In this document: positions 16,101 through 57,790 of the stretch, piece after piece
How positions within the stretch are numbered: the stretch's first letter is position 1
Layout of the letters: each line of letters begins with the position of its first letter
From: Maylandia zebra
Taxonomy: Eukaryota; Chordata; Actinopteri; Cichliformes; Cichlidae
Assembly: GCF_041146795.1 (NCBI RefSeq)
Contig: NC_135179.1
Location: 27,143,047 to 27,207,046 of the forward strand
Reading direction: 5' to 3'
Length of the DNA: 64,000 bases
Translations under genes and position numbers: made by a program
The notes under the pieces: model-generated
Seen by the model: the letters and a program-made list of their open reading frames with translations, nothing else
What the model was told of the DNA's origin: nothing
Database searches by the model: none

Positions 16101-17136
16101 CCAAAATGCATGGTACCTTGCAAGGAAACCTCAAGAAAGTAATCCACATATTTGGCCATGTATAGTTTAGTCTTTTCCAGGCATGTCATAGGCCAGCCAT
16201 CATGCAGATCACCCTCATGGACCGCAATAGAGAGGTAGTAGTCTGTAAAATGGGCCGACGTAGGGAGGTACAGGTTCCACTGGAAAGTTTCCAACAGGAG
16301 CAGCTCCATATGCAGCAAACCCTGCTTGGTCAGGACCAGGTTCATGGAGCTCATGCAACCCAGGTTGTTTAGTGTTTCCAGCTTTGGCACCCGGTCCTCC
16401 CTTTCCTCAAACTTACCTGTAAGCAAAGAACAATCACCCAATCTGTCACACCAGTGTGGACACTTACTAGTTAGATGTGTTGAAAAGTGAAGTCAGCTGC
16501 ACACTTACTGGCCAGAAGAAGACACGAGAGCGAGACCATGTGAAGCTGCTGCACCGTGACGTCATAGCGGTCCATGAAGAGGTCCAGCAGGTAGACGGCC
16601 AGGTGCCTGGCCGTAGGACAGAGCCTGAAGCGGTTGCTGACAATGGCTATGAGGTCTGCGAAGTATCGCCTCAAATTGAGCTGAGGGGACTGACCTTTGA
16701 AGGAAGGTAACTTGAGCTCCTATGGGACAACGTGTTTTGAGATTTCAAAAAGACACATCTTTCATTGTAACTGAACTAGACTTTAGGTTTATTCTGCTGT
16801 AGTCCTATGAGATTACTCAAGCAGCAAGCAATTTAAAGCGAGCAAAGACAAGTTCATGCCTATTAAAATAAGGAATCAATATCGTTTTCAAAAGTAACTC
16901 AGATTTCACTATTTACAGTTTTGCACTGCTATTTCAACATCAAAATGTAAAACAGCACGACAGAAGAAGTTACTGATGAATGTGAAGGATGACACTACAG
17001 GTAACCTTTCTCATAGTTTTTGCATCATTTTTAGCAGCCACCACATAAATGACCCGGTGTGACTCACTTTGTATCGCAGCGCCTGGTATATATCTGCAGC
17101 AAGTTGTCCTTTCCACCATTGGTCCTCCAGCTCCAT
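13129..17136 (-). CDS. ccnj: Cyclin J
   Basis: Five coding exons, all with GT-AG borders and matching phases: 17068-17136, 16509-16719, 16117-16416, 13742-13901, 13129-13453 (1065 nt, 354 aa). The start M-E-L-E-D-Q-W-W and the cyclin box core [11 protein letters not shown] (about residue 40) are diagnostic of cyclin J. The N-terminal cyclin fold spans roughly residues 15-135 and the C-terminal fold 140-240, with [10 protein letters not shown] in exon 4. A Q-rich tail (five consecutive Gln around 265) and a final C-F-D-R follow. Cyclin J is a divergent cyclin; the Drosophila protein acts in oogenesis and binds Cdk1, and the vertebrate role is less clear. Length is slightly below the human protein (about 370-380 aa). 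The start ATG lies 21 bases inside an exon that opens at a good acceptor (17157). Confidence 0.95.
13382..13398 (-). repeat. ccnj: CAG/polyglutamine run in ccnj exon 5
   Basis: CTGCTGCTGCTGCTG on the plus strand encodes five consecutive Gln in the cyclin J tail, near an N-Q-Q context. Confidence 0.8.
14843..14930 (-). pseudogene. Duplicated fragment of ccnj exon 5 inside ccnj intron 4
   Basis: The plus-strand segment 14846-14905 aligns, by eye about 80% identical over roughly 60 bases, to 13317-13380 in the last coding exon of ccnj. In minus-strand translation the copy reads [17 protein letters not shown] then a stop, against [17 protein letters not shown] in the true exon. It has a stop codon and no splice sites, so it is a dead partial duplication in the same orientation as the gene. 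It directly abuts Tc1-like sequence at about 14960. Confidence 0.7.
14960..15640 (+). mobile_element. Decayed Tc1-like transposon (family A) in ccnj intron 4
   Basis: Blocks at 14985-15030, 15050-15180 and 15380-15615 match in order the family-A Tc1 copy at 7996-8801 and the wider fish Tc1 transposase gene. The catalytic C-terminal block, with a C-T-C-C-A-C-A-G-T-C-A-C-C-A-G-A-T-C type signature, lies near 15430. Stops and a central deletion disable it. The left end is lost at the junction with the duplicated ccnj fragment. Confidence 0.7.
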
Positions 17137-23317: not shown

Positions 23318-26313
23318 ATGGATTCGGTGGGTATCTGCACAGCTACATCTGCAGGAGATAATAAACAGCGTACCAACAATAAGAACAGAGACCGCCACAA
23401 ACAGCTCCACCTCAGGAAGAATGCCGTTCAGCCCCTAGCTATGCAAAATGAAGATAAGCGTGGACCAAAAAAGATATCAGAGGAGTGGGAGCAGAGCACA
23501 GTGCGGCCTTCATCAAAGAAGCCCTCGCAGGAAGTGCCGCAAAGCCAGTGCGGGACAAATAACCATGGGAATGCGCTCCGGTTCACCTGCTCTCAGTGCA
23601 GTGACAATTTGGAATATGTTCCCAAAGACTTAATGAGACACTTTGAGGAAAAACACAGAGGGATTGCCCCATTTTTTTCCTGTCATGTATGTAGTTTTAG
23701 CACAGACAAGTTCTCCTATCTTCAGGTCCACCTATTAAGCCACAAAGACACTTTTTCTAGCTGCAGCATATGCAATGATGACATTAGACGCACATGGCCT
23801 GAATTCAGTGCTCACCTGACTGCGTATCACTGCCCAAACGGCAAATACTCATGTGAAATGTGCCAGAAATTCTCCACAGGTGATGTTAGAGTATTTTTAG
23901 AGCATGTGTACATACATAATTTGGACCTGGAAGGAGCCGATGATCTGTTGGTGCAAACAAAGGACGTGAATCAGCTATCAACTACTCAAAGGTTACACTG
24001 TCATCTCTGTGGCTTTGAGGCATCTCAGAAATGGTTGATAACTAAGCACATTAAGACTGCCCATATGTGCCAAAATGGCAACCAGAAGAAAAAAAGGAAG
24101 GCGGTTCATTCTCTAGCAATACAACCAAATGATACAATCCCCAATGTGAAGCCCAGAACAAGAAGTGCAGTTAGGGAAATGCGCTGGCTGACGCCGGACT
24201 GCCTTTCTCTGCCCGGGAAAGAATTCTTGGATAAATACTGCCATCTGTCAGATCCACAAACGACACTAGAGGAGACTCAAAAGTTTCTGATGAAATCTGT
24301 TGCAGGAGAAACCGGTGACCAGAAATGGACCAAGGCCTTGAAAACTGTTCTGTCAAACATCCCGCAAGATATAAATCTTCTCCCCATGCAGGAGAACAGC
24401 ATCGTGTCATCAGATCTTACTGTTCTGACGCTGAAGAACAAGATAACTGTAGCTCAGAACGGTGCTGCTTACGGCAAAAGGTTGAAAACGGTGGCATCAT
24501 CAGATAAGGAAGCTGAAAGTGCTGCTGGCGATGCTCAGTGCGTGGTCAACCAAAATGGATGTCACTCGACTTTGAACGAGTGTGCTCCGTGTCTGCATGC
24601 TGAAAATAAACTACATAATGATGTCCCGGCATCAGCCCACACTGAGCCAACGGAGTGCACTCGCATCCAGGAAAACCGAGAGAATCAGGAACTAAAGATT
24701 GTTCAGGAAACTGAAGAGCATATTAAAAAGCTGGAGGGGCCTGTTTATGGTGATGGCAATCATGTTTCCAGTGATCTGAAGTTGACAAAGGAGGCTGAGG
24801 AGCAAATGCCCAAATATAAAGTCATGCCAAAAAACAAGAGGAAATGTCGACGGCGTAAAAGGAAGACCAGGTTTAAAAAAGCAAATAAAAGGTCACCAGA
24901 GCTGTCCTTAAAGATAGTATTGAAAAAAAATCCTGTGAAGGACAAGCAGTGGGTGTCACAAACTTCTTTGTCTCCATCAGAGGGCAGTGGCCAGCATGGA
25001 CTGCAATATCCTCATACGGCAATGGAGGAGACTGTACAGATTGTCCAAACCGTGTGCCCATTAGAAGTACACCAGAAGAAATGGACCAAAGGTTCAGAGA
25101 CTGAACTCTATGACCAATTTGAAGCCATTAGCTCAATTCAGCAATCAAAGCCAAAAGAGGACTTCACTCCAGGATGCACTGCAAAACCAACAAGTTCTAG
25201 AAATATGACTGCAAACACGCCAGATCTACGTGAAGGTTTGATTCCGGCACATCAAGAACTGGAGGGCGATGCAGAGAAGTTGCTGAACTTCATGGAAGTT
25301 GACAAGAGCATTTCAGCCCTTTGGATGAGTCCAACAAATCCAAAGGCTGGGTCAGTGACTGAAGCAAGCCTTGAGAATGTAGGGCTTGAGCCATCGCAGA
25401 ATGGCAGTCGCTACCCTGAGTCGAATGATGAGATGAGTTCTGCTGCTGATGGAGTGACTCCTCAAACCAGCGCCCAGTCTTCCTCTATTTCCCAACCGGC
25501 TCTTCCAACACGAGGTAAAATTAGAATTTCTACTTTCTCTACATAAAATGTCTGAAGATTTAATTTCCAACGGCATTTTATTCCCAATATTTGAACTTTG
25601 AGTTGTAATTTTAAATATGCTGAGTGTTTTTTACTTTTTATTTTGCAGATAAGATGGGTTCCTGCTGTGGCCCATCTGCAAAGCTGAGTGATCGGAGCAT
25701 TGAAGGGGTGAAATTTGGAGAAGTACCTGTAGACTCCTTCACAAACATCCTCAACAAAAACCATTCACCTGCTGGTAAAGCCATCCAAGAAGAGCCCTCA
25801 TCAGCCCCTGGCTGTTGGTGGCAGCCCGTCCCAAAAGATCTGGAGAGGACCTTGAAGTTGGTAGCCTTAAATCCCTCTCAGCTGGTAAAGCGTCCAACAG
25901 GAGACCAGCCTGTTGTAGTGCTAAATCATCCCGATGCTGACATTCCTGAGGTGGCCAGGATCATGGAGGTTGTGAACAGGTACAGAGGAGATGTGCAGAA
26001 GGTCACACTGTCACGCAGGACTCTGAACGTGCTCTCGGCTTTGAGCAGCGAGCTCCCTGCGGCAGACGACCTAACGGAAGCCGCATGGAGCGGTAAAAAC
26101 TCAGTGCAGGAAAGGTTCTCTTTGAAGTTCAAACTTCGCAGGTTGAGCAGGAAAAAGTACGAAATGGTGGGCGTGATGTCTCCCAGCAGAGACGTCGTGA
26201 CGAAGTTTCGCTGCTGGTTTTGTGGCAGGGTCTTCACCAGTCAGGAAATGTGGCTGGCCCACCGGCAGCGGCACCTGATGGAGTGGAATAGGCCAAACTG
26301 CGAAAACTCTTAA
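23318..26313 (+). CDS. znf518a: Zinc finger protein 518A-like
   Basis: Two coding exons, 23318-25514 and 25649-26313, joined through GTAAAA and TTTTGCAG with phase 1, giving 953 aa. The start ATG sits in a strong context (ACCATGG). Five C2H2 fingers lie in the N-terminal quarter (first Cys at about 91, 122, 149, 179 and 228). A basic K/R cluster (about 505-525) is a likely nuclear signal. The middle is low-complexity, and the last exon ends in a sixth C2H2 finger (C-W-F-C-G-R-V-F ... H-R-Q-R-H) close to the C-terminus. That layout, five fingers near the N-terminus plus one at the very end, is characteristic of ZNF518A/B. ZNF518 proteins are nuclear and linked to the G9a/GLP and PRC2 repressive machinery. 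It is shorter than human ZNF518A (about 1480 aa). The A assignment rests on neighbours ccnj and blnk; ZNF518B is the alternative. Confidence 0.88.
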
Positions 26314-28759: not shown

Positions 28760-31700
28760 CTAGGGCTTCACTGGGTAGCATAACTTGGTGGCTTCTTTGG
28801 CATTGCTCTGACTGTCAATCAGCACCAGGGGGTTTCTCTGGTGGTTCTCAATGATCTTAGAGATGCTGCTGAAGTGCTGCAATGAGAAAAAAACCCCCCA
28901 CAAAGGAGAATATTCTGTTAGACTAAAGGAAAATGTTTACAGCATTAGGATGAGGCTTGAGATCATTTTAACCCTGTCCACCACTGTGTAGGTCTCTGTG
29001 TTAGGACATGGCCTTGTCTTTATGCGTGCATGTTGATGCCATTTTTGAAAACGTATTTGAATATGGCACATTTTACAACGATGCTGCCTAAAGACAAAAA
29101 TATATCTATTCCCAAAATGCTGACTTAAAGTAATTTAATTATATGCAAGTTTTTCATGTAGTTTTGTTACGTAAGTATAATGTGAAATGCTACATTTAAT
29201 GGAATCGATTCCATTGATCAAGTGGAAGTAAAAGGTTCTTGAGGTTTGCAGGAGTTTTTTTTTAAATCTCATGCTGGCCAGATCTCATGATGAGCAGGAT
29301 TTCGGAATTTTCATAAGACTCTCATATCATTGCTCTTTTTTGGCCACAGACTTGTGGCACTATAAATTAATGGTAAGGGTAAATGGACTGGTACTTATGT
29401 GTTGCCTTTCTACTCAATTTAAGCAATCAAAACACTTTCTACAAGTGTAATTCACTCAGTCACACACATTCATACAGCTCTTATCTATGTCTAAGAACCT
29501 TTTTCTAACATTCACACACAAACCTGATGCTTTGACTAATGGACTGCGGATTAACCTACCAACAATCTGATTGGTAAATACTACTATCTACTATCTAACC
29601 ACAGCGGCCAACTTCACGAATCACTGGATGACCCTTTAGGTGAAAAAACAAGCTGACAGGTAGAAAGCGTTTTAATAATAATAATAATAATAATGTCTAC
29701 AGTTTGTAGGCCCTGGGGCCAGGTGAGTTAAATGAACTTGTTAAAAAAGGCTTTAATATGGGACCTTTCATTTAGGAAGTTTATTCAAAAGGGAAATTTG
29801 CAAAAAAGGTGATTCGTTTTTTAAGAAGACAGTCATAGTGTTGTTGTTTCTTTAATATGAGTCTAATAATTATTAATAAAGCAGGGTACCTTTCTAATTC
29901 ATAACACTACTGATTAAATTGGAAAATCTTTTTGGTTTATGTAGCTTGAAAAAGGAATAATTTCCCCTAGCTTTTGCCTGACACGCAAGAGCCCACGAGG
30001 ACTCACAAGCCAATACACCTCTGGTGCTGGTCCTAAGCCCAGATGAAAGGGTAGGGTTTCATCATCAGGTAGGACAGCCAGCACAGAACCTGTGCCAAAT
30101 CAGCTAGGCAGATCATTTGCTTGGGAAAATGATATCTTTGGGTAAGACACAAACCCAAGTTGCTCTCGATGCATCCATCAGAGCATAAATGTGTGTGAAC
30201 ATTAGATAAAAAACACTTACGTAGGAAAACGCACAGAAAAATATGCTTGTGTGAATGAGGCAAGTTGTATAAGGTGTTTAGGTAGTGTAGAAAAACACTA
30301 TATAAAAAATCTGTCCATTTACCGTAAACGCTGTAAGTAAGCAGAAAATTTCCAAACATTTTGAAAAGTAGACGTTTAAATAACAAAATGAATTCTAACC
30401 GAATTCCCAGATATAGCCACGTTTCTTTAGCATTTACGCTACTACTATTGTGCATGCTTACTATCCTCATCCTATTTAGAATTTCTTAAATGTGGGTTAA
30501 ATGAAGCATAAAGTATATCTGTTGTTATTTATTGTACCAAGTAGTGCAGTAAATAGTAAGTTTTGTGGTATTTGCCACACTAATGTGTTACCTGTAAAGT
30601 GTTGGGCACTGTTAGTGTCACAATTCTGACAAACAGCAGCCTAGACAGGCATAAAAGGGCTCTTACTAAAGTACAGATACACTTAAACTGAACAGACCTA
30701 TCAAAGACGTATATTTACCTCTTCCCCTTTCTTCTCTCTTCCCAGAGCATACTGCTGAGTGCTTGGTATATAGCGGATTGGGATGTTGTACACTCTGCCA
30801 TTGTAAAACACCACTAACGTATACGGCTGCTGTGCGTCATGACCAGAGCTCTTTCTCACCATAAATGCTCCGTCCTGAAACAGAAAAAGCTCAGAGTCAA
30901 ACCCAGATTACAAAAATGACGGCTCAGCAGCTCTCTCTTCTCACCAAGAAGATTCTCACTTTATTCAAGCGAAACAAGGCATCGTCAGCAGTTTTTCGGT
31001 CGCACCCACTGGCATACCAGGGTTTCCTATAGATGTCTGCATCCTGAAATAAAGTGAAGGGAAATGAGGGTTACAAATATATTATGAAAAACATCTTTGC
31101 AGTCTACTGTTTTAAGAGCACACCTTATCTTGATCTCCTGTGTCATTTTCATGAGGCTCTGCGAAAATAAAGAATTTATGTCATTTTACATTGAAGTGCA
31201 AAATTCCCGTGTACGTGGATGTTAGACACAAGGGGGGCCCACACTTACTTGGGGAGGTAAACTGTGGAATAGGAATTCTGCAAGACAGAGTCCACAAACA
31301 GAGCAGACGTCAGTGAGTGCACAGTACAAAGCTGTGCTTAAAGACATTTTTTACCACTTACTTTGGTCGCTGAAAGTCCAGTGTAAAGGCTTTTGGAGGA
31401 GTCTTCTGTTCATTATGAGCCAAAGGCAGTGTTTTGCCTTGAAAAATACAGACATGCTGAAATTAGTCTGCTTACTGTTTAGGTATAAGTAGAAAATAAA
31501 GATAATTTTTCAGTAATCAGCAGTTTGTAAAATTTGTCAACAAAGCATTTTCAGTCTGTATATTTAAGTCCTTATAACTGGAATAGATTTAATGTGAAAA
31601 ATCTGTAAATGACGGTAAAATCTACTACAGTCCAACTCGTCTGTCATTCTTATGCACTGTCTGTACTGCTCGTGTGCTTCTGCAATTAAGTGATAATGGG

Positions 31701-34700
31701 AAAGCAAGTGGAAACCACAGAGGAAATGAGATGTGTGCTAAAGCTGTGCACACAATTATGGAAGCAGATTGCACTAATTGGCTGATTGTCCAGTGTTTAT
31801 TAAAGGCTCAGTCAGGTGTGGCTAATAATGGGAGTTAATTAAAATACTTACTTTCACAGTCCTTTGCTTTTAAATCTGGCCTCTGGAATGAAAGTCATAT
31901 TTAGTATTTCTTTCACCGTCATCAGTGAAAGTGTGTAATGTTGACAGGGATGAGTGTATTATATGAAAAACTAGACATTTAATCAGATAATTATAATATT
32001 CTAACATTGTTTGCATTGCTTTCATTTAAATTAAATTCCTACCGGTCCTAGAGGTGGTTTTGGTGACCTCCTGTGGAAAACAATGAAATGATCACTTATT
32101 CTATTCTTTGAGCTCATAGCTTTATGTTAACTGAAATAATGTTAGGGTAAGTGATGCTTACTCTCTGGGTATAGGTTTAGGTAGACGTGGAGGACGATTC
32201 CTCCCAGGACCTAGAAGAGCAAATACAAAGCAGTTATATGAGTGTATTACTGGGTTCCCTATACAGTATAAATGCTAGTTATGTCAGTATTTTTGAAATT
32301 ATAAATTAGTCATTCCATCGTAGAAAAGTTATTTGTCACTTGAGAGTGGCGTTCTTTACACCACTGCATCTGACGCTTTTTACTTGGCCTGATCTTGACT
32401 AATACGAATGACCTGAACTGCAACCTTTGATCCTGTTTGTGGTGTAATGCCTTTTGTAGCAGTTCAATGGATTAACTTACAGATAGTAAGGATTACAGTG
32501 GTACTCCTTAAAAGGTTTGTGCTTCAACTTTGTTGAGTGAAAGTCTAGTATCATATCAGTATTCAAAGGAGCTTGCAAAGAAAAGCGTAACAATGTGGTG
32601 TATGTTAACAATGTGGTGTATGCTGTACAGTGCAGCGAGGAATGCCCAGACCTCTACATTGGAGAGACCAAACAGCCACTTCACAAGCGCATGGCATAAC
32701 ATAGAAGAGCCACCTCCACAGGACAAGACTCAGCAGTCCATCTGCAGCTTAAGGATAAAGGACACTCTTTCGAGGATGCCAAGGTTCCCATTTTGGACAG
32801 AGAGGACAGATGGTTTGAAAGAGGAGTGAAAGAAGCATCTATGTCCACTGTGAGCGACCATCTTTGAACAGAGGCGGTGGTTTACGACACCAACTGTCTG
32901 CCATCTATAATCCAGTTTTGAGATCCCTCCCCAGACGCCTGAACGCCCACTCACATCCTGGGCCATCTGACCTCAGGAATTCGCATGATAAGGTGGGGCC
33001 AGGTTTCACAATGAGTTCACCTGAAACCCTGGCTGATTGTGAGCCACACCCATTTTCACACCTTGGCTCAGGCAATTAGAGGATCATCAGGGGGTCCTTT
33101 TGTCCCTCTGTGGGGGGAAACTCCCACTAGGTTTATATCTGGGACTCTCCACCATTTGACCTTAGAACTGAAGAAGCTTCTCGGATGAGAGGTGAAACGT
33201 CTTCAAGCAACTTAAAGAAGTCCAGATGCTTTTCTTTGCAAGCTCCTTTGACTACGATGACCTGGATGACCTTCACAGACATATCATATCAGTATGTTTG
33301 CGTCTGTAACTGTACCATGTTTGGGTGTAGCTTTCTACTGAGCTTGCTAGTGTTAGCTTAGCACTCAAGCCACCTGTATATGGAAAGTTCTGGCCCTAAA
33401 AACCAACGTGGCAGCAGCCAAAATGCTAAAATAAAAAATTTGTTCATAAAGGTCACAAAGACCTGAAAGCCCACTGATGACACCCAAAGTGTCAAAATTG
33501 ACAGAATTATTTCCATAGCTAAGAAGCACCCATTATTTACACTATGTAGGCGGTGTAACATTGGAAAATTGTAAATTCAAGAGACACCTTCATTAATGCA
33601 AATACAGTGGGTTACAACAAAGTGCTAACCTTTGGCTATACTAAAGAGCAAGAAGGCCAGATCATACTTGCTAGAAAACATCTAAAAGAGCCTGCATGGC
33701 ACTAAAATCAGTTATTTGGACAGATTAAACTGCGATGAATTCGTATAAGAAAGATCAGAAGAAAAAAGTATGAAGATGGAGAGAAACAGCTGGGATCCAA
33801 GCATGCCACATTATTTGTCACACTTGGTGGAGGCAATGTTATGGCATGGTCATGCATGGCTGCCAGTGGAAATGGGTCACTAGTGTTTTTTGATGATGTG
33901 ACTATAGAAGTAACAGGATGATTGTGATGTGTAGAGGACTGGCTATACTCTCAGATTGAGCCAAATGCTAAAAAACACCTCACAGTGCAAATGGATAATC
34001 ACCCAGACCATACTGCAAAAGCAACTCAAGAGGTTCTCAAGGCAAAAACTTGGTATATTCTTCGAATGTCAAGTGAGTTGCATGATCCCAACCTAATAAA
34101 GCATATATTTCAGTTACTGAAGATAGATCAGAGTGAAAAAATGAACAAATAGGCAACAAATTACAGTGGCAAAGCATCTTAAAGGAATAAACACAGCATT
34201 TGGTGATGTTTGTGGTTTCTAGCCTAATGGGAAAATTAAATTAAAGATTTTAATCCAAGTATTGAAATCAATACTTGCATATAAAAAGAGTTTTTCCAAA
34301 CAATTTTGGATGTTTGAAAAAAATATTTATAAAAATTGCTCTAATTCTTAAATTCTTAGTTAATATATCTTTTTTGTAAAAAACCTTGATTGCACTTTAA
34401 CATAATTGTTGTTTGGTTTAAAATCCATTGCGGTGGTGTACAGAGGCAAAACTACAAAATGTGTTGCTCTGTCCAATAAGTTATATATACCTAACACAGT
34501 GTGCATACAGGCAGTTTGTTCGTAATGATACAGAGTGGGGGACCTTATCATAAAAGGGAACACCTAATCTAAAACTCCATCACTTTGATAAGCAGTGAAA
34601 CACTTCCAAGGTCTTTCAGGTGAACCCTGCCACAGCAACACTACTAGTACATATTACTGGCCTTTCTGAACAAATAGTTCTTTTATTTCATTTCATACTC

Positions 34701-37700
34701 ACTATCGTCTGGATCGCAAACTTCATATTCATCCCCATCAGTTGTCTCCTGGACCTGCATAATAACAACACCAATCCATTGGTATCCTTCTTAATGTCCA
34801 GTATCTTTTATGCGCCTTAAAAATTTGTAATCACTTACATGCGTGGGAGATTTCCTCATGTTCACTCTAAAAAACAAGAAGAAGAAAAAGAAATCTCCAA
34901 AACATCACTATACGTCAAATATTAGAATAGAATGTAATGACAAAGTATTGGTCATGCCATAATTTGAGTCTTGGTAGTCGTACCTGGGGCTGGGTTTTGG
35001 TGGTAAAGATGATGAGTGTTTTGCTGGGGTTGGACATAATCTAAAAGAAAAATCCAAGGAAATTATTAATAGTTGCAGTCAAAATAATTTCCAAATACTG
35101 TTATTTATTTGTTATTTATAACAAGTACTTTATAACAGAGTGCTCAGATAATTTACTCAAGTAAAAGTACCAATATTAAATAAAAGGGGAATTAATGCTC
35201 TATATTTAACATCATATTTAGGTACAAGTGTATTAGCCATACACTTAAATTTAGTATAAACAATTCCTTGAAGAGTTAGGCATTAGTGATACATACGCCT
35301 GGTTAGTTTTTAGAGTTGCAAAACAGTTTTATGTCTTTGGGGCTTGAAGGGTAGCAAGGTTAGGAACACTGATTTAACATTTAACCACTTGTTATAATAT
35401 TAAATGCATGTTCTTCAATATATCAAGTCAATAACAAAGTACTGAAAAAGTAAAAGTGTTACAAAAATATGGCAATAAAAAAACTACTATCTAAGAATCT
35501 TAATATTACACTTATATACAGTACTTGAGTAAATTTACTTTGTTACATTCCACCACAGATTTGGACGTCTGTCTACATGAATGAATGTAACTCTGGAAAG
35601 TATTAAACTAACCTGCTTCCTGGATGAGCTGGAGAATTGTCCTGTGAGGGTAGCATAAAATGCAAACAGTGTTCAGCTTCAAGTATTCAAGTATTCATGT
35701 AAAAAATGTGTAATTACATTTTACATAAATGTCCTACCTCTTTGTCAGGAACTTCATAAAAATCTGAAAAATAACCACAGCATCAATTAGGCAGGCAGCA
35801 GAACAAAAAAGCCACCTTTTGGTGCTGGTTTACATCGGCCTCTTCGGCTGCTTTTTAACTATCCTTTGCATTTGCATGCATTTACTAATAACCTGTTAAA
35901 TACAGGAGTCACGACAGAGCTTCTTTTTTGTTCTTGCCTTTAGGCTGGAAAAGCAGATTGACGCAGTTGCGTGTAGTTTGCACAGAAGGTACCAAATAAA
36001 ACTGTGTGACACTTAAGCCAGAAAAAGAATTTACCATTTACCACTGCTCAGCTGCTCATTCGCATTTGCAGACAAACCGAGTTCTTACATGCAAACTATG
36101 GGTCACCGCAGCAATCTGCTATCGACTAAATTACTCACAAGGTTTTTTGTGCAGCACTTTCTTTGTAACACTTATCGCATCTTTCCCTTGTGGGGAGTGG
36201 TTTTATTAAAACCAATATTGTGGACAACTCTGAAGCAACTACATAATGTGAGATACATGCCTCTATTCAAAGGGAATAGAGATGTGGTTGAGATGTGGTT
36301 GGTTCATTACCCTCTAAGATTTTTTAACTTTTCATCTGAATCCTCCCTTAGTTATGCTGCAATACGTGTAGGCTGCTGGGGGATTCCCATGATGCATAGA
36401 GAGGTCTGTGCACTGAATCATACTTATTATCTCTGTCTCTCTTCCACAGCATGTCTTTTATCCTGTCTTCCTTCTCTCACCCCATCGGTCGCAGCAGATG
36501 GCCCCGCCCCTCCCTGAGCCTGGTTCTGCTGGGGGTTTCTTCCTGTTAAAAGGGAGTTTTTCCTTCCCAGTGTTGCCAAAGTGCTTGTTCACAGGGGGTC
36601 ATATGATTGTTGGGTTTTTCCTCTGTATATATTATTGTAGGGGCTACCTTACAATATAAAGCACCTTGAGGTAGCTGTTGTTGTGATTTGGCACTGTATA
36701 AATAAAACTGAATTGAATTGAACTGAACTGAATCTAGTGCATAGTGAGGCTCTAATTTTAATAAACTTGATAATGTAGTTTACAAAACACATGCAAAACT
36801 TATTTACTACTAAAAAAAATGTAGTAAGATAGAATAACAAAGCAGCCTAGCCTCTAATCGCTAACGTTTTGACAAGTGCCCAAACTAATGTTTTTGCAAC
36901 AAGAGGTACTAGCACACAACATGTTGTCAAGCTGACATTAGCGTTTAGCAGCAGATACTAATCAAGTACAAAATCATTTACACTTTTTGTTGCATCATCG
37001 TATGAGTAAAGTCCCATGACAATGAGGTGCACAGTTTGCACCGCTGCAACTTTACAGCTGGGCTTTGTTCATGATGTTAGTAAAGCCTAACTGCTTGCAC
37101 ATGTAAAATGTATTCACTCAGCAAAGAATGTACATTGCACTTGGCGCAAACCGTTTTAACCCATTAATCTTGCTTTGTAGTACAGTGGTCCCTCGGTATA
37201 ATGTGGTTCACCTTTTGCGGATTCGCTGTTTCGCAGATTTTTTTTGTGTGTAATTTTGTACGTTTTTTCTCTTTTTTTTCTTTCTTTCTTTTTTTTTAAC
37301 AGCACATTTTATTCTGCGTTCTGATTGGCTGTAGACCATTGTCAGTCAATCTCGTGCTGTGTCTCCTGCACAGTACAGAATGTGTTCAGCTTGTCAAATT
37401 GACATAAATCTTAATAAGCTAGCAGTGTGACTCGGAAGTGCAGTACTCTATGTTTGTTTTATCCCCAACAAACAACAATGTTGACGAGACGTTTTGCACC
37501 ATCAAAGCAACCGTGGGTGCCTTTGGTTTCATTCTATAATACTGGACTTTTTGTTCTACCAAGGTTAGAACTTTGAAAGTGTTTAAACAAGAGAGAAAAG
37601 TGTGAAAATGTTCATGCCTGTGTGAGAAAAGTGTATAAAGTGTGTAGTGAGGGGTTTTACAGCCTTAAAACATCTATAATAATTGTAAAAAATAAAGTTG

Positions 37701-39808
37701 GCTACTTCGCAGATTTCACTGATCGCGAAATACGTTTAGAACGTAACCCCCGTGATAAACGATGGACCACTGCACACCCCTCTGGCCATGTGCTTTACCC
37801 ACCGGGACTTGGAGTCCGCTGTGGTAACTTGGGAAGGTCTCTTGTAGCTTTGTTCCCACTGTTCACTGCGTATGAGGAAAAGCATAGAAAGGACTGTTAT
37901 TATTTTTCCTGTAACTATTTGTATTTTATGTTGTTTTCTGGTTTAATTCAAATTCCAGCTGTTATTCAGCATATTGCAAAGCACAGATCTTTTTTTTTCT
38001 TCTCTATGTTTGACTTGTAGCTTACTGCTAGGATTCTCTGAAGGTTCTATATAGTTGTCATTGTCCTCTGGATTTATGTAGTCCTCCTAAAAAGCAACAG
38101 AGACAACATCCCCACATTCGTTGGAAGATATTTTAAAATATGTAGTGAAATGTAACTGAAATGACACATCAAAGTGGCCTTACTTCATCACTTCCCACGT
38201 TTGGGGGTTCAGGGGGTAGCTCTTTGAACTTAGTTGGGCGGAGGGGCTTCTTGGGTGGCCGCTTGGGCGGGCTGTCTGAAAAGGAGAAGCAGAACCAGAA
38301 AAAGGGACATCATTTGCATGGAGACAGCTTGGTGTATTGCAACTCAATGTGTGTTTGTCACACTTCTGCAGAAATGTAGGGATGACTGCAAAAGAGTGAG
38401 TTTCAAGGCTATAGAAACTTTATAAAAAGAAGTCAACATTGCGTAAATTTTCAAAAGCATCATCAGTGAAACAAACAAAAAAAAAAGCAAAGAAAAAAAA
38501 AGCATGTATGTATAGTGACAAAAAAGGTCAAAGGACTACTGACCGACATACTCGCCCCTTGGGAAGGAACCAGAGGGAGGTGCGGTGAAGACTCTGTGGC
38601 TAGGAGGAGGTTCGTAGCTGTCATCATCACGTGGATCCTCATATGTGTCATTGTCCTGGAATAAACACGCTTTTAATAGCAAGCGTATCAGCAAGTGTAA
38701 GAATCATTTAAAATGAGCATTTTTCTAACTTACGTAATCAGAATCCGACAGCTGATCGTCGCTTTCCCTGTGGTCATCTGTAAACACAGAGGTTTAAGGC
38801 ATTTTCGTAACAAAGAGGAAGAAATCAAGATGTGGAAACGCAATCGTTGCTGTTATTAAAGCCAAATTTCTAAAAACAGTAAAACCTGGCAACCAACGAA
38901 ACTCAGCAGGTGTTAGAGCACAATTTTAGAGTAAAACCTCAAAACTCAGTGTTTCGGTTGTGGAGCCAGTGATGTGTGTCTCCTCACCTCTTGAACTGTA
39001 GACTAAAGTCTCTCAGTCGTTTAAAATGATGCAATTTTATCATTCTGTACTTTTACACTTTACTTTTGTGTAAGTTTTATACAATTAAGCAAAGAGGTTA
39101 TCAAGCCAATATCTGAAAACAGGTGATCTGACTGAGCTGCAGTTTGTTTAATAGTAAATTTGTACCTTCAAGCATGGACACGGAGGCAAAAAAATCAAAG
39201 ATGTACGTTAAAAAATAACAATCCAGCCTGATGACTTGTAATTCAGATGTAAATGTTTATGTCTAATGTGGTGATAGAGTTCAGGAGATTATTTCATAGA
39301 AAGCTAGCAGGTATCGGCAAATCAAAACTGGAGAGTGATAGCAAACTTCTCTTCTTTCAAAATGTCAAATTTGTGTTTCTAGAGTTAAAAATACATATGG
39401 CTGTATGTGTACAGATTGATTTCTTTAAAAGTTTCCATTCCTACAGTTGCACAAAGGAGACACGTGGGACAAAGTCTGAAACCCCCACGCTGTACAAAAA
39501 ATAAAAATCCCGTCCAAGAGCATCAGAAGTCAAAAGAAACTTTGTGAGTCTTAATGAGATGAGTCAGAAACGTCAAAGTTATTTTTTTTTTTGTAGCAAG
39601 TGTCCCATTGATGTTTCTGTACTGGGATAGGAATAACACAAGGAGCCCCGCTCAGGTGAATCTTTGTGCCCTGTACAGACATGTAGATTACAGTGACCTG
39701 TAATCTACATGTCTGATTCCTTCAGTGTACTATATGGGCTAATGACTCAGTTCTTACCTCTGTAGTCTCTCGCCGGTACTGTGGGCACCGGTTTGTTTGT
39801 CAGCCTGT

Positions 39809-40860: not shown

Positions 40861-41043
40861 GTTTGATCCAAAAGTTTACATTTTTCGGGCCACATTCCTG
40901 TCATGTGGTAAAGGTCGACTGCCGAATTTTTCGCAGAATTGTAAATGAACCCTGCCTTTGTTTAGTCACGTCCTTCTCACACAGGGGAGGGAATTTGCTC
41001 GAGCCACCTCTGTCAGACAAATCACTTCTCTTTTCCACTCCCC

Positions 41044-44143: not shown

Positions 44144-45550
44144 CAGAGATGGGCAGTAATCTGTAATCTGATTACTTTTTTCAAGTAATGAGTAAAGTAA
44201 GGGATTACTATTGCAAAAAAGGTATTTAGATTACCGTTACTTTCCCGTAAGCACACTGCGTTACTGCGTTACTGCGTTACTACGTTACTAAAACCAGGAT
44301 TCTTTTGTGAGTGTCTCATGACAATGACGTAAGCGAGTGCGACGTTCGTGGCAACAGCTGTGTGCAGATCAAGAATGGATAATATATCGAGTGTGGGAGA
44401 GAGTATGATAAATTTTGAGGTTATTATATCATCTTATGCCATGTTATACCCCTAATTAAAGATTGTGAAATTATTATGTAGTTTTAGTTTGCATTATTCT
44501 CCTGACTTAGAAAAAGGGGATAACTATTACATTTATTAAACTGATTTGTGTTACATTAGACTGCTGATTTATTGTGAATGAGTGATATTGTTTTATGATG
44601 TATGATACAGCTGCATTATAAGAAATACTGTTTTCAGAGAATCATGGCCTTATTTGTCTGATTAGAAAGGAACAGAACATACTGCACAGGAAGCCAAGGT
44701 CATAACTTAGGCTCACTGAGAGAGAAAGAATGTGGATGTTTAGGTTTTATGACGCTGGAGGGGGGCTGAAGCTATAAGAATGTGAGAAATGGTCATACAC
44801 CTCGAGATCTGCTGTTACCCTCATCGGCACATCTCCCATCCGGATGTATTGCGCAAAAGTGTTGTATGGAATAATGAGAATTGTATGGAATAAAATGACT
44901 GTTGATTGAGCATTTATACACCGTTCTTCCTTCAGCCCAAAGATCAAAGAATTGGGAGGATTCAACACCATGCAGTGTTTAAAGCATGGAAGTACTGACC
45001 TTACTTTGAGTTTGATTCGTAAAAAGTGCCAAAAACATTAGCGTCCGCTGCTCACTGCGTGGGAAGAAAACGTCTTTTTACAGCGGAAAAACCCCTTAAC
45101 TTCCGAGCAAGCACCGAGTGTGTTACCACGGAATGGTAAATTCACAAACTCGCGGATTCTTCCACTGACCGCTGCGGCAAACCTGCACCAGGGCAAACCT
45201 CCGCCTGCCCCAATCCTGCTACAGGTGAAAATAGAGCAACAGAACCACTATATAAAAAATAAAATTTTTTGCTTGATGCATAAAGTTAAAAGATTAAAAC
45301 TAATAAAACAAATTTTAAAAAGAGACTTTTCCATTTGATTACATTTTATATGATAGATTAGGCAGAAAGTAGAATTGGGCTGAAAGATCTATTGCTTTAT
45401 CACCTATTCAGGTTGTAAATTATGTTTCTAAAAAGTAACTAAGTAACTAATTACTTTCAAAAATAAGTAATCAGTAAAGTGATTACTTTTTTGGGGAAGT
45501 AATCATTATTAGTTACTGATTACTTTTTTCAAGTAACTTGACCAACACTG
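44144..45550. mobile_element. Non-autonomous hAT transposon with 8-bp TSD
   Basis: Both sides carry the exact 8-bp duplication GTCACAAA (44136-44143 and 45551-45558). Ends are CAGAGATGGGCAG at the left and the complement of CAGTGTTGGTCAAG at the right, typical hAT termini. Subterminal regions are rich in alternating TTACT/AGTAA motifs. No transposase frame, so it is non-autonomous. Confidence 0.85.
44444..44967. mobile_element. Candidate solo LTR nested in the hAT
   Basis: A 524-bp segment flanked by the 5-bp repeat CCATG (44439-44443 and 44968-44972). It has an AATAAA signal near 44890 and ends in TTCAACA. The left edge can be read as TGTTAT if the repeat is taken to overlap. No coding sequence and no second LTR, so it would be a solo LTR of an old LTR element. 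The call is tentative. Confidence 0.4.
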
Positions 45551-46102: not shown

Positions 46103-49100
46103 GGCTGGTGGATGAGACTAAACTTGCTCAAGTCACTTTCACTCAGGTTCTGAAAGAACATCAGAGAAATCAACTGTTAAAAAAATGTGACAGGATGGGA
46201 GGAAAATAAAAGACTACAGAGATCACAGATCGCTGTGATTCCTTTCAGCAGAGATGATACGGCGAGGATGTCACCTTTACTGGAGCAGAAGAGACATGAA
46301 TGCATTACCTCTTTAGGAACAAAAGATGGCAGCATCTCACTTAGGGCCTTTTTTGGAGGCACATGTGCTCAAACTTCGCTGTAGCTCAAAAAAGGGCACA
46401 GTTTAGCCACATTCAGACACGAACCTAAAAGTGCTGTTGGTAACATACTCCAGTAATTTCACAGGAAAGCTGTGGGCTGAGCGTCTTGCTTATGAGCCCA
46501 AATATCTACTAACACAGGATAAACATATTTTTTTTTATTAACAGAGTGCTTTTATAAGAATTAATTCTAAACTAAAAGCTGATAGAAAATAATTTTGAAA
46601 TCAACATTAAATGAACGTTGGCTGTTTTGTTTGTTGTCGCCCTTCAGGTTTGGCTCGCTCGTCTTAATACAAACAAATCCCAACCATATTATCATATTAC
46701 CCAATTTTCTAAATGATCTCACATTAAAAAAAAAAGTTTAGCCGACTGCGCTTGTATTAGGTTTTTTTTTGTCGTATTCATAATGTCTGTGTTGCAGTAA
46801 GGCGTTTGTGATTTGTAAATGAAAGGAAAATGATTACCATAAAATATGCAACAAATTCCGCTAAATTATGTATTCCCCTCTTCATTCATAATTCATTGCT
46901 CCAGGTCGTTACTTGCTCTGTCTCTCTTCCGTTTTAAATTTGCTGTAATGTAATGAGGATCCACGGCCACAAATGTTTGGGAAAAGTTGGGAATTTTAGT
47001 TTGCGAGACGTCACGTGACCCGACGGAGGCGTGTCATAACAGGCTGTAATATAAAGCGTCTGAATTTAACGTAAGAATGATGTATAATTGGTCCTTTATT
47101 CAATAAGTATGATGTGAAACCTGTGTAATGATATGCTGTTAAGCTGATTAAACAGTAGCTGTTTATTTATAAGAGAAATCAAACAGGGAGGGGAGTTAGT
47201 AATTCAGCTCACACTACCTTGATGTGTGTGTTTCGGTTGAACAAAAAGCCGCATTACCTCTAGGAATAAGCCCATAGCATAGCTGAAGCACTTTAAGACT
47301 GAGATTGGGATTTAATCATCTGTAAATTTAAAAGTGAGATCGCTTAATATGAAAGACTGTGCCTCCTTCAAAGCACTGATCCTTGCCCTCGCAGATACAC
47401 ACTTGATCATCACGCAGTCTTACAGGAAGAAGAAAAAAACATCTGTATAAAATCAGACTTAGCCTTTTGACACCGAATGAAATATCAAATAGTCTGCCCC
47501 AGTGGATACTCAGGCACAGCTCACACAGTGAATTATTTATAGGAGTGTCTGTGCTTGTTCAAATGAGACACAACAGCTCTACAAGGTGCATCCGTTCCCT
47601 TTTTTCCAGTAGGCCCAGAGTCCACGTTTTATCATTTTAAAAATGCTCATGGTCACACTGCAATGCTTTACATGCTTTTAGATCTTCCGTCAGGCCTGTT
47701 AGTAAATGTGAATGGGGCATTTTTCCTTTTCACAGTCTTCTTGTAAACCATTTTTTCATTGTCATGATGTGACATTTTTAACCTTGACGATACTGATAGT
47801 AGCATTAGCAAGATAAAGGCTATATCTGAAATTACTTCCCTGTGCAGTCATTCATGCGTATGTAATAAACCAAAGTGAGATTTTAGCTTTCATTTGTAGA
47901 AGTAGTTTATTTTTAAACAGGGACAAGTATGTCACATGAACCAGGCAGCACACAATAGCATTTATAGTCTAACCTAGTTTGTAATGGCCCTCAAAATCAA
48001 TACCATTCATAATCTATATAATAAATACACACATTTAAGAGGTGGAAGGGAGCTAAAACTGTTAAAAAGGTGGAGAGCATGTTTAAAGCAAACAAGCCAA
48101 GCAGGCCTGGCAAAAACCAACCCTAGGGTGGGTTTTTTTCTTGTAAGATAAATGAGGAAATTTTCCAACTGTTATTTAAAAGTGACTCAAAACTATTGAT
48201 GGTAATAAACACATTAAAATCACAGAATATCCCACTGGAAAGTCTACATTGCGTCAGTGTGAAATCTCGGTTTCACCCTAAACCAGGTGCACAGACGACC
48301 ACTATTCTTGTTTCTGTTCATGAGTGGTTTGCTGTCGGAGTGGCAAACAGCAAGGGCAAGGGTCTGACGCACCGAACATTTGTTAATACTTCTCGTTGAA
48401 ACGAGTTTCATTTCACGATAGAGAGAACAGCTTCGCAGCTACACGGCCACAAAATTACCCCTCGGTTCTTTCACGGCAGCTGCACAAGGTCTCATGACTG
48501 TCATTAGGTGAGAGACTTTCCACATGTTCACAAATCTACACTGGATGTCGACAAGCTAATTCTGGTTTAAGGTGTTTTTCCTGCTTTGTGGCTCTGTTAT
48601 CCATTACGAGGCAGCTGTGTCAAAATTCAAATTAGATTCAGTGAGACTAAAGAATTACTGCTTATTACGCTGAGGACATATTATTGCAGAGTGCCGCTGT
48701 AGATTTTTAAGGCCAACGGCAAAACAGAAATATATACTGCTGGCCCGTATACAAGTCACTTTATTAGGTACACCCTACAGCTGCTCTTTAACAGGTGGAA
48801 CTGGGAGCATCGCATTACGGACACGAAGCTGTGATACTATCATGTCAGTATGGATTAAAATCTCTGAGGTATGTTTCCAGCACAAGACACTTCTGAATGC
48901 AAAAAGCAGTCCAACCCTGCACCTAATAAAGTGGCAACTATATGCAGATGTGCTATATGTGCTCCATAGGAAGCATCTGCAATGGAAGCATATGTGGGTT
49001 TTTTTTCGAGGGGCCTTTGTTTGTAATGTCAATGTGATACACCGAAGCTGAAAGTGGCTTCCCCACATAGCCGCCACACACAGGCGGCATTACAGAGATG

Positions 49101-52100
49101 GAAGCTGACAGTTCTTTTGATCTTCTGCTTCCACATATCGCTTTTAACCTGTCTACCTGTGTGAGCGAATGTGGCATCAAAAAGACAGAGATTACCTTTA
49201 TCTGCGCTGCGCTGACTGTCTGTCATTCCGCTCCGTACTGTATTATACAGCCACCCACCGCTCATACGGAATAAAACTGTTTTTCTTTTCCCACCTTTCA
49301 TTCTTACCGCTAAATCGTGACCACGCGTTGTGGGTGCAATGTGAATAAGATGCATTCGAGGCAGGAGCTGACGATGACGTTTCCATATGAAAGTAGTTCA
49401 GATCTGTGTTGCATGCTTACACTTTTTAAAAAAAAAAGGATTTTATGACCTTTGCTCCAGCCACTGTACATCACATGAATATGTAAAATAAGCCAAAGGC
49501 AATGCTCAGCAGAAGCATGCTCGCTGGATGACATTCAGATACCAAAGTGCAGGCCCTGCTCTGCTTCTGGACACACGCTGAGCTCCTGATGAGTCAAAAA
49601 TAACTTACTACAAATGTTTCTTCTTCTTTGCTGGATTTTAAAAACCTGTAGAAGAGGCAAATAATGCCTTTAAAAATTCTCCGTTTATTAATAATTAGTT
49701 GTTTCAGTGATGTCGCTGGAGCGTCAACAACACTGCAGTTGTTGTCAAATGTGATTTTAGGTCAACACAGGCAAACACAACCCCTTCAAACAATACAAAA
49801 ACGTATATTCGCATATTTTCGGAAGCACACTGATGATTCAACCACTGAATCTTTAAAAAAGGTTGCTCTTGTAAAATAAAGGAAGTGACATTACACTGCC
49901 AGGGGCAATTTCAGGATGTTTGTCAAAAATAGAAGAGGAACTGGATAGTTGCAATGAGCAGCGTCACTCGTAGTAGAGAAAGTAAAGAGCACCATCTGCT
50001 GGATTTCGTCAACTGAAAATCCAAACAAAACCTTTCTCAAAGACACAAATGTCTTTACAGTAATGACTTTTTTCAGATATTTTCCAAATATATGTATCTA
50101 TGAAGCTATTCAGTCAAACACAGACAACTTTATACACTTTCTGTAAGCATGCTCATAAACACCAGTGAACATGTAGTGCCATAACTCTTCTGTAACGTTC
50201 CAGATCTGAAAAGTGAAGCTTCTGCATTCTTTATCATTACCATTAGGGGGCGACCTTCCTGGTTGTTTGACAAAGACTGGTTGTCTATAGGAAAAGGATT
50301 CCACTAATAACTTCAGAAAACAGTTTCCTGACTGGGCTGTAGTATAAGTTGTGAGTTAGAAATCTTCTCTGTCTGGTTGTTTTGTAAATTATGGTTACTT
50401 GTAGAGCCACTAATGCTTCAGGATCCACCTTGTGATTGACAAGAGTGCTCAGATTTTTCAGTCAAGGCCCTTGCTTATCACACCCCACTTCACTGTGACA
50501 GCCAACATGCTTAAAGCCTTCACAAACTAGCAGGTGTCCATATTTTATATACAGTCAAAACAGCCTAAAATCAGCTTGCTAATATATTCTAGTAGCAATG
50601 CTAACAAGATGATACTGATGGGAGCATTTGATTGGAGGGACAACCAGGAGGTAATCAAACCACAAATATCTGTACTGTAGAACTTAAAATAGCGAATTAT
50701 ATAACATGAAGTATTATATACAGTCTATGATTTGTGCAAATTGCTTGCATATGCTACACAATAGTTAAAAATGCCAACCTGCTTGTGGAGCAAAGTATAA
50801 AGTCAAGAGCAAAACAAAACACAGAATATTTGCTGCAAATTTTATGCCCGTGAACCCAGTTGTTGTTGAGCCACTTTGCTCTGAACCACAAATGTCGACC
50901 TCCTCTTGCGGCACTGGAGAAAAAGTTAGAGGTTTACAAAAGTCAGCGTGATTCAGCCTCTGAGGACACCGAACAGCAGAAGGAAATTTCATCCAAAAGT
51001 GATCCATCGAGAAGCTGGTTGGGGATTTTATTTATAGATCAAATTCCTTTGCTGCAGTAAAAATACTGGCTAAAAAAAAGCTTAAAAGTTTGACTGGGGA
51101 ATGTCTGTCAGACACCGCAACCTTGAAGCTAGTTAAACTAAAAAGCTGGGCAGCCACTCAATAAAAGCATGGGTTTACTTAAGCGTGCACTGGCTGGATC
51201 CATAGCTAAGGAGATCTATCAATCGATACACATACTGTATGTATATGTATATTTCAGATTGGTGATGTTAACGTGCACATCAAAGCCTCTGCTCTGAAGT
51301 ATTAATCAATTTGACTGATAAAATCCGCATCTTTTTTTTTTGAACTATGCACTTCAGTGATGCAATATCCCACCTAAAGTAGAGTTAGCTCAGGGTCATT
51401 GAATAATGAATAGGCGACTAGGCCGCTGCTCTAATTTAGAGCGTGGCAAGAAGTGTGCATAAGCGTCCACTTAAAAGATGCATATGAATGAAAGCTTCTT
51501 CAGGCTTGGCAGTGTGTGGGAGGTTTTTACTGAAGTATTATAAAGATCCCCCAAAACACCAAATATTAGGGAGTTATAAACCCTCACTTCAGTTATTTGC
51601 TGCATAAAATCCTCTTTAAACAGCGTTCCCCCTCATGACTGAAGCAGATTTAGAGATACTTACTTAAGTAAGTGGGGATTACAGCTTTATTAGCCATGAG
51701 ACTCATTTCACACTCCTTACTCTCTCCCGAACAGGGGCACTCAGCTGCGCTCAGTTTGGCAGCCTGCTTCTCGGTAGCTATGAGAAAGGCCTCAGAGATT
51801 GTACGCAAGGCGTGGATGATGGAGACAGAGCAGCGAGGGTGAAACCAAAGCAGAAGTTACAACAGATACACAGACTTCCACATTAGCAGGGCAACAGTTT
51901 ACATAAAGAGCAAGTGTGGGAAGTAATGCAACCGGCTTTTGTCATGTTTCGTATCCTGTGAACTCTCCTGTTTTTCAACTTGAAACGTGCTTTTAGATTC
52001 ATAGTAAAAGTGTGTTCGTCAAGCAGTGACATTTTAACAAGAAAACAATAAAAAAAATGTCTGCCAGAGTAACAGAGAGTGAGAGTGTTACAAATAAACC

Positions 52101-52620
52101 AACCTCAACTGCTCGCCAGGATTTGACCATTTTAATTAGAATAACAAACTGAACACAACCACAACCCTGATATGATCCTGGGTGGATTAGTAGATTATGT
52201 AACTGTGTGGGAGAAAGAGCCATTTCTGGATTATTCAGGTACAAATGAGGAAAGACTCACCAGAAATCTCTGTCCATTAATTTTCAGTCTGTTTACGGTG
52301 ACGGCGCATTCTTGCATATTATTCTGAGGAGAGTAAACATATCCATTCACTATTTTTAAATGACTAATTACACATACTTATTGAATCAAACAAACATTTA
52401 ACTTCCAGTCATCTAATGTCCTGGTCTTACTTTAACACTTTAGCCGCTTATGTGCATTAACATTAACATTATACGTGACCCTCAGAATGAACTGGTGAAT
52501 ATTTAAAGTGCGACAAAACACAAGCATCTCTCCCATTTCCAGTGGACTCACCTTATACAGTAAGAAGGCTACTTTTGCCTGGTCCCACCCCTCGCACTCC
52601 TCTCTGGACGGCAGGTTCAT
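46103..52620 (-). CDS. blnk: Alternative 5' exons of blnk encoding an SLP-76-like SAM domain
   Basis: Three exons on the minus strand: 52552-52620 (ATG at 52620), 52261-52323 and 46103-46149, with donors GTGAGT, GTGAGT and GTAAGT and clean CAG acceptors. They encode M-N-L-P-S-R-E-E ... G-W-D-Q-A-K-V-A-F-L-L-Y-K, then N-N-M-Q-E-C-A-V-T-V-N-R-L-K-I-N-G-Q-R-F-L, then N-L-S-E-S-D-L-S-K-F-S-L-I-H-Q-P. This aligns without gaps in the core to the SAM domain at the N-terminus of SLP-76 (G-W-D; I-D-G-A-R-F-L-N-L-T-E-N-D-I-Q-K-F). The third exon ends in phase 2, exactly as the short first exon 40808-40860 does, so it can splice to 40346-40411 in frame and give a 465-aa product. An in-frame TAA just upstream of the 40860 start, with no acceptor between, means these exons must skip exon 40808-40860. 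The alternative is a separate gene, but no other downstream partner is visible. Confidence 0.85.
46150..52260. other. blnk intron between the second and third SAM exons
   Basis: About 6.1 kb. It holds a Tc1 deletion derivative (48748-48935), a GC-richer patch around 46990-47035 with overlapping CRE and E-box motifs, and an exon-like segment at 51660-51840. No supported gene on either strand. Confidence 0.5.
48748..48935 (+). mobile_element. Tc1-like family A internal-deletion derivative
   Basis: A left end with CACTTTATTAGGTACACC and a right end with CCTAATAAAGTGGC bracket only about 190 bp, the right-hand part of which matches the last portion of the transposase gene. A MITE-like deletion product. 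Confidence 0.65.
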
Positions 52621-55640: not shown

Positions 55641-55744
55641 TTTTCCTGGATGGAAGTTAAGTGGCGCACAACAACACCGACACAAACTCACAAAAGCGGC
55701 GATTCCTAGAGGTGCAGAAATACTTTAGAGAGCTCATCTCAGAG

Positions 55745-55938
55745 ATGTTCCACACTCCTATTGTGCCTCGCGCGAGGAAGAGGTCAAGGCCGGCCGAAGC
55801 AAGCGCTCCCAGGCGTGAAAGGGTGAAGTTTGAGGATGTCAGGCTGTACCTGGTGGAGAGGAAAATGGGCCGCAGCAGGAGAAGCTTTCTGACCGAGCTG
55901 GCCAGGTCAAAGGGCTTTATTGTGGAAGACGTCCTCAG
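55745..55938 (+). CDS. dntt: Terminal deoxynucleotidyl transferase, exon 1
   Basis: First coding exon of TdT, the template-independent family X polymerase that adds N nucleotides at V(D)J junctions in the nucleus of developing lymphocytes. The frame stays open upstream to 55661, but its first ATG is at 55745 (M-F-H-T-P-I-V-P), followed by a basic nuclear-signal cluster (R-A-R-K-R-S-R-P). The start of the BRCT domain then follows: V-K-F-E-D-V-R-L-Y-L-V-E-R-K-M-G, and R-R-S-F-L-T-E-L-A-R-S-K-G-F. Ends CTCAG before GTTTGG, phase 2. The next exon found is at 63584, leaving a 7.6-kb intron. Confidence 0.92.
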
Positions 55939-57790
55939 GTTTGGGAACCAAAAAAAAGCTTGCCATTTGTGTCATTCACAGACTTAGCAGGGCTTGCCAC
56001 CTAAAAGCTTTTCTCAATGTGAAGCTGAAAAGAGCTTTAGTGTAAGGGGAGGAGGGGAGTGGGTACACTTTTATTTTCTGGGTTTGTATTTGCTGGAAGC
56101 AAACAGAGTGGTTTGACCTGGCGGTTGACTTTTGAGGCCTCTAGTTTAACCCTAGAAGCATTCAGCAGAAGCATTTTCTGGCAGTCAAGCTTATGACTTC
56201 AAAATTAAATACTTTCCATGCCTACAAAAAGTTTTATTATAATCTGAAAAAAAAAATACAATTACAATTTTGTGGAATAATTGCCTGTTCACAGAATTTT
56301 TGACTGATTGGAGTGGGAAAAACATGCCAGGACTTCAACACTGAGACATCCAAGGTTACTTTTTGACACTTTCCTGCAAACTTCTTTTTTTCTTAGAAGC
56401 TATGGTCCAATTAGCTAAATAGAGAGCGACTATTGTCTCATGAATAGTTAATTAAGAAGGGTTAGGGCATCCATCCTGCTTCCTCTACACCTTAGTGGAT
56501 TCCCCCCCCTGAGCCATTACTCACAGCTCCACACATAAATACGTTAAAAGCAGGGGCAAGAAATTGGCTAAACCAGCTGCAGCTTGTTGGCAGCCAGAGA
56601 ACTACAAACAATAGAAGAAAGGTAACAGAGCACACGCAAACTTTTTAATGAGTTTGGTGAAAGTTTTTTTTTTGTTAAGTCTCACTAAAGAAGAGATGTT
56701 CTGTGAGCTTGTTCCTTGGGATGATGATTCATCTATTGCACGGTAATTACAGACGCAGCGTGCCTCCGTCGTTTTTTCTGCCTCTAATTGAAAGTATCTT
56801 TTTAAAGTCCCAAACTGTGAGCACAGCAGAAGTCCTCCGCTTGACACCAGAGATGCTTTAGAGTCAGGCTTCTTTGTTAACGCAACATCCCGTTATTTAG
56901 AAGTCGACTTTGTTTTCAGTGCTGGGCGTTAAGCTCAGAGTTTGAGCTCCTCTGGTGAGCAGGTGTTTTTGTTTGTGTTTTTCATTGCTTTGCTTTCATG
57001 TAAAGTGAGGGCAATTTCTCCTTCTAAGTTAACATTAGCTCAAGGTTGAAAAATGGTTGAAGTTGAGCATATGATGTAGGGTGTATGTACAGGGTTTAGG
57101 CAAAGGGTCCCAATGAGTATGCTATAACCAGCGTAAGAGCCTGTGTGTGTTTGTGCGCGAGACAGAGAGAGCATGTTTAAATGCGTGTCTAAGTGGGCCT
57201 GCCAGCCGTGCACCAGCTTGGCCATGGCAGCATTCCCAGAAACACAGCTTGAGCGCTCCTACGGTTACACTTGGCTTGATACAATTGTTTGAAACCAACG
57301 ACAGGAAGTAGAGCGTGCCCGCCTCAAACTGACATTAATTCTGCAAGCCGACAAAACTGCTATCAGCTGCAGTTTGATAGCAACACCTCACGTGCCTAGT
57401 CTTACACACGTTATAGGCAGGCTGCCTCCAGCATATGGTCAGATGCGCTGCCTGCTTTCCTCCGAGCATAAAGGAACACGCCCGTACACACAGACACACA
57501 CAATCACACGACGCACATGCACAGAAGTTTCCACACTGTATGAATTTCAAGTCCTGCGTGCATGAACATGGATCAAAATATTGACATGTTTGTCCTGGGT
57601 GACTAATGAGCTGCATTACATGCTGTTTCGCAAATGGGAATAACACACACACACACACGCACACACACAGACACGTACTTACCCCATAAGTTTAGGTCAT
57701 AGGCACCATTTTCCAAACGCTTTGTTTTCTGAGGAACGATGTTTTATCCTTGAATTTGTCACAGCAGTTAGATATGATGTTGGATGTGAC
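55939..57790. other. dntt intron 1, left part
   Basis: No coding exon supported. Contains (CA)-rich short tracts near 57487-57505 and 57643-57675. Confidence 0.5.

Follow-up and report, generated by a model that had tools for sequence, protein, structure and literature searches.

The described adaptors closest to the locus reported here are SLP-76 (LCP2) and BLNK (SLP-65, BASH). For SLP-76, excerpts from PMC3795252 assign the first four helices to residues 1–57 and the SAM domain without its fifth helix (H5) to residues 1–61. According to the same excerpts, a mutant in which H5 is all that is kept of the SAM domain (dN57) still self-associates, although less efficiently and in smaller clusters, and supports enhanced T-cell activation; deletion of H5 abolishes self-association. 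The N-terminus of mammalian BLNK is described as basic and as needed for membrane association, most likely via a leucine zipper, and a zipper-less variant could still be phosphorylated (PMC3283690, in a section citing Kohler 2005). In an excerpt from PMC7016142, SLP65 without residues 1–45, its lipid-binding part, is reported to lose vesicle attachment, granules and the Ca2+ response, and the SLP65 N-terminus is called positively charged and vesicle-binding in a section of PMC10923291.

Outside the vertebrates, relatives with an N-terminal SAM domain and a C-terminal SH2 domain have been described in amphioxus (bbslp76, which differs in having a WW domain too; PMC5431462) and in a sea star (the BLNK-like protein XP_038070561; PMC11593052), and the portions of these papers that describe the two proteins mention no alternative, SAM-less start. 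Tunicate slp76 is described as having neither a SAM nor a WW domain, and in the authors' view amphioxus is where the two domains first appear (PMC5431462, in the section concerned). In the sea star egg transcript the SAM and SH2 domains lie in different frames, for which the authors suspect an assembly error (PMC11593052, likewise). A search of titles and abstract openings in open-licence PMC returned, among the matches listed, no paper describing a vertebrate BLNK with a SAM domain; predicted fish proteins of this kind may already stand in databases.

The window analysed here, a stretch of 64,000 nucleotides from the cichlid Maylandia zebra (contig NC_135179.1; positions are counted from its first letter), has, on its minus strand, a fish-like blnk gene, whose coding exons were assembled by hand and checked by script. 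Each coding exon has a single match on the minus strand, introns begin with GT and end with AG, and the reading frame is open down to a stop in exon 28876–28760. The models were built from sequence alone, and some of the short central exons might splice differently. A first-pass annotation had placed three exons encoding a SAM domain upstream of the usual start, and the script check found all three on the minus strand where they had been claimed: exon A at 52620–52552 (69 nt; ATG at 52620; donor AAG/gtgagt; MNLPSREECEGWDQAKVAFLLYK), an alternative first coding exon; exon B at 52323–52261 (63 nt; NNMQECAVTVNRLKINGQRFL); and exon C at 46149–46103 (47 nt; NLSESDLSKFSLIHQP). The usual first coding exon, S, is at 40860–40808 (MNMDTLGKLAAPATAKIR) and the shared exon D at 40411–40346 (QLQKIVQDIKKNDGSFLNKLK(R)), the latter predicted to encode most of SAM helix H5 and a basic tail. 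Exons C and S both leave in phase 2, and D accepts either A-B-C or S in frame, so that the in-frame joining proposed for the SAM exons was borne out. The other 20 coding exons (e3–e22; 28760–39804, minus strand) encode a tyrosine/proline-rich region and, in e20–e22, an SH2 domain. The hand-built models give 24 coding exons and 486 aa with the SAM exons, and 22 coding exons and 444 aa without them; the lengths of 465 and 423 aa given in the first pass were each 21 short, while the difference of 42 between them stood.

By its predicted SH2 domain (Pfam PF00017), the gene is BLNK. The best PDB match of this domain was B-cell linker protein (2eo6, E = 2.8e-50) and the second best PLC-gamma2 (E = 3.8e-6); the matches listed at E up to 1e-5 included no SLP-76 or CLNK SH2 chain, of which PDB may hold none. 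A scan of viral contigs yielded no relatives of the short blnk protein. The locus resembles BLNK in its SH2 domain and in a short N-terminus with a basic region, but differs from it in the extra upstream exons that complete a SAM domain. With SLP-76 it shares the order of an N-terminal SAM domain (72 residues, gapless), a tyrosine/proline-rich region and an SH2 domain, whereas the SH2 domain itself is that of BLNK and the choice of first coding exon seems to make the SAM domain optional here.

On the plus strand, at 55661–55987, the divergent neighbour of blnk shows an exon for the N-terminal part of a polymerase of the Pol mu/TdT type (matches to Pol mu at E = 3.1e-9 and to terminal deoxynucleotidyltransferase, 2coe, at E = 1.2e-7; no Pfam match). 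This neighbour is probably DNTT, because human BLNK and DNTT are, as we take it, neighbours. Since this gene lies on the opposite strand, the SAM exons were ruled out as part of it. Elsewhere in the window, cyclin N-terminal domain exons lie on the minus strand at 15980–16674 (PF00134, E = 1e-11, with a second match at 0.0072, below cut-off), which by synteny we take to be CCNJ, and two long open reading frames on the plus strand at 23318–26313, with zinc-finger matches below curated cut-offs, are by the same token presumably ZNF518A-like. By eye, a 757-aa open reading frame at 5122–7395 (plus strand) resembles the reverse transcriptase of a non-LTR retrotransposon, and a segment with AGTAATC-rich ends at 44150–45550 (minus strand), within the intron between C and D, resembles a non-autonomous DNA transposon.

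When the peptide joined from exons A-B-C-D was compared with PDB using phmmer, it matched the SAM domain of SLP-76 (2eap, lymphocyte cytosolic protein 2, which we take to be the human protein) at E = 3.2e-13, the sole match below 0.05 among the eight listed at E up to 10; the A-B-C peptide without D reached 2eap at E = 2.6e-9. The alignment of A–D with 2eap extends over 72 residues without a gap and crosses all three exon junctions, with 30 identical residues (42%) distributed over A (9/22), B (8/21), C (7/16) and D (6/13). On shuffling each exon in the aligned register, the observed score was reached by 1 of 100,000 shuffles for A, by none for B or C, and by 14 for D. Large hydrophobic residues occupy 25 of the 72 columns in each protein and coincide in 20, a number reached by none of 100,000 shuffles.

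Because the exons had first been picked by eye, a spliced DP search was run over the whole window on both strands, with the SLP-76 SAM domain as the only query, no gaps, and GT/GC-AG introns in all phases. The best path comprised 52617–52552, 52323–52261, 46149–46103 and 40411–40372, that is, exon A from its second codon and exon D up to the end of the query, with a score of 110. On the plus strand the best score was 57. Of two sets of 30 controls on the minus strand, dinucleotide shuffles of the sequence did not exceed 70 (mean 59.8) and shuffles of the query did not exceed 74 (mean 62.3). The homology to SLP-76 claimed for the SAM exons is thus supported both by the 2eap match and by a score of 110 versus 74 or less in the 60 minus-strand controls, and the identification of blnk as their partner gains from the unprompted choice of D as the next exon across the window. 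Taken together, these comparisons indicate that A–D would encode an SLP-76-type SAM domain, by homology across H1–H5.

Other searches responded less to these exons. Pfam SAM_1 scored 16.5 bits (E = 0.011) on the 82-aa piece, below its cut-off of 23, and 14.1 bits on A–C alone, and it was absent from the matches to the full-length protein listed up to E = 1; an SLP-76-type SAM domain may not necessarily be expected to pass this general model. With the SLP-76 SAM domain as the query of a plain tblastn search, exon C was the best of the 20 matches shown (E = 0.16) and exon D the fourth (E = 2.8), neither of them significant, and exons A and B were not among the 20.

Native SLP-76 numbering was obtained by subtracting 7 from the 2eap chain number, in agreement with the translated H5-deletion primer in PMC3795252. 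In this numbering, exons A–C end at the residue matching SLP-76 63. As H1–H4 correspond to residues 1–57, A–C would supply these four helices and perhaps a few residues at the start of H5, and D the remainder. On their own the SAM exons would therefore be incomplete, with most of H5 predicted to come from an exon that the short form also uses. The assignment of D to H5 is supported by the continuous alignment, the improvement in E on adding D, the choice of D by the spliced DP search, and the 14 in 100,000 shuffles. With an E limit of 10, the peptide of S and D alone found 31 matches in PDB, the best of them insignificant (E = 0.42) and none of them 2eap, so that the H5 identity of D depends on its place in the A–D alignment and on the per-exon shuffles. 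Because the short form uses D, the part of ordinary BLNK that binds membranes at the N-terminus looks like a SAM H5 left behind. The fish short form has a net charge of +7 over its first 45 residues. By analogy, it can be seen as nearly a natural counterpart of dN57.

Splice sites were scored with a matrix trained on the other blnk introns, with D included and S and A–C left out. The donors of A, B and C were equalled or beaten by 0.2%, 2.1% and 2.0% of the minus-strand GT sites of the window, and the acceptor of C by 1.1% of its minus-strand AG sites; the acceptor of B is ordinary, with 9.6% of these AG sites scoring as well. The donor of S is strong (0.6% of the window's GT sites score as well). 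In-frame stops precede the ATGs of both A (at 52689) and S (at 40878), and the BLNK-type short N-terminus has its own first coding exon, S being open, in phase and preceded by a stop. We also considered, and rejected, an internal position for S downstream of C: within 300 nt no acceptor combined an open frame with the right phase, and the open acceptors found in these 300 nt and S itself, at 40817 and 40812, both lie within S and are both in the wrong phase behind C. Given the upstream stops and this lack of a fitting acceptor, S and A are best read as first coding exons, and since S cannot be spliced in frame behind C, the choice lies between two of them. S may also be preceded by a noncoding exon, and a distal promoter may alternatively have a noncoding link to S. 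PU.1-like strings occur at -266 for A and -473 for S, and AP-1- and RUNX-like strings before S, in a scan made without a chance control, from which no inference is drawn.

With the exons, their phases, the sequence homology, the continuity through H5 and the misfit of S behind C established, the best overall explanation is a single fish blnk with two alternative sets of first coding exons, which we regard as likely, a judgement that applies mainly to the gene structure; transcription, the choice of isoform or tissue, and the function of the SAM form we infer. Two promoters would be the simplest reading of the two sets. From a distal start at 52.6 kb, A-B-C would be spliced into D to give a BLNK of 486 aa whose SAM domain is complete and of SLP-76 type, with H1–H4 from A–C and most of H5 from D; from a proximal start at 40.9 kb, S would be spliced into D to give the usual 444-aa BLNK. 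In this short form H5 would be freed from the SAM fold and, together with S and the basic tail, would make up an N-terminal membrane- or vesicle-binding region, leaving the protein vesicle-anchored, as is known for mammalian SLP65. The long form would likely self-associate through its SAM domain and so hide or redirect H5. More tentatively, and with slightly less than even confidence, we propose that a second promoter trimmed a SAM domain to its final helix and so gave BLNK proteins their membrane-binding N-terminus, and that fish still switch between SAM-clustering and vesicle-anchored BLNK at one locus, perhaps by cell type.

Of the other readings, one has the same gene structure as this explanation, and its probability overlaps with that of the explanation: the SAM form might be the only or main fish BLNK, with S minor or nonfunctional and no regulated switch. 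The SAM exons are indeed intact and 5'-most, but S is in phase, is preceded by a stop of its own and ends in a strong donor; it presumably also resembles the start of mammalian BLNK, whose N-terminus we take to align with S plus D, and we consider a fish BLNK of this kind unlikely. Very unlikely, in our view, is that exons A–C are untranscribed relics that chance has left intact, with the short form as the sole product. Such relics would be compatible with the Pfam SAM_1 score and the ordinary acceptor of B, and the structure is known from genomic letters rather than from transcripts; against this, three open frames, five splice ends and the shared SAM hydrophobic positions are all intact, and neutral decay since the split of SLP-76 and BLNK should have erased the SAM exons. 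Open, correctly bounded exons A–C and a joined SAM domain 42% identical to SLP-76 argue for selection instead. That A-B-C form a separate small gene or part of a neighbour, unjoined to blnk, accords with the 5.7 kb between C and D and with the polymerase exon at about 55.7 kb, but is highly improbable given that these exons lie on the blnk strand and in blnk phase, that a SAM domain without D lacks most of H5, and that the spliced DP search chose D out of the whole window.

The explanation by one gene with two sets of first coding exons also bears on the ancestry of the domain. That SLP-76 and this fish blnk both have a SAM domain, joined at H5, accords with a domain inherited from before the two diverged. 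The SAM exons might conceivably have been gained by blnk from LCP2, but this would need an insertion in exactly the right phase, completing a helix that was already present. The first-pass annotation had suggested an ancestral SAM domain, and this fits the SAM- and SH2-bearing relatives in amphioxus and sea star, as the excerpted sources describe them, although the amphioxus paper also reports a tunicate slp76 that lacks SAM. Together these descriptions argue for an older SAM domain that was lost in tunicates. The SAM domain would then be ancestral to the SLP-76/BLNK family, with mammalian BLNK keeping only H5.

Unless fish annotations already show the SAM form, the locus represents a known kind of adaptor in a new layout. 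It makes the question of an ancestral SAM domain testable, through fish RNA-seq and through comparison of the BLNK-DNTT region among tetrapod genomes, and it leads to the prediction that the artificial SLP-76 dN57 mutant, which retains only H5, copies the evolutionary step taken by BLNK. The two antigen-receptor adaptors would thereby be linked by a simple genetic step, and an origin can be proposed for the N-terminal helix of BLNK.
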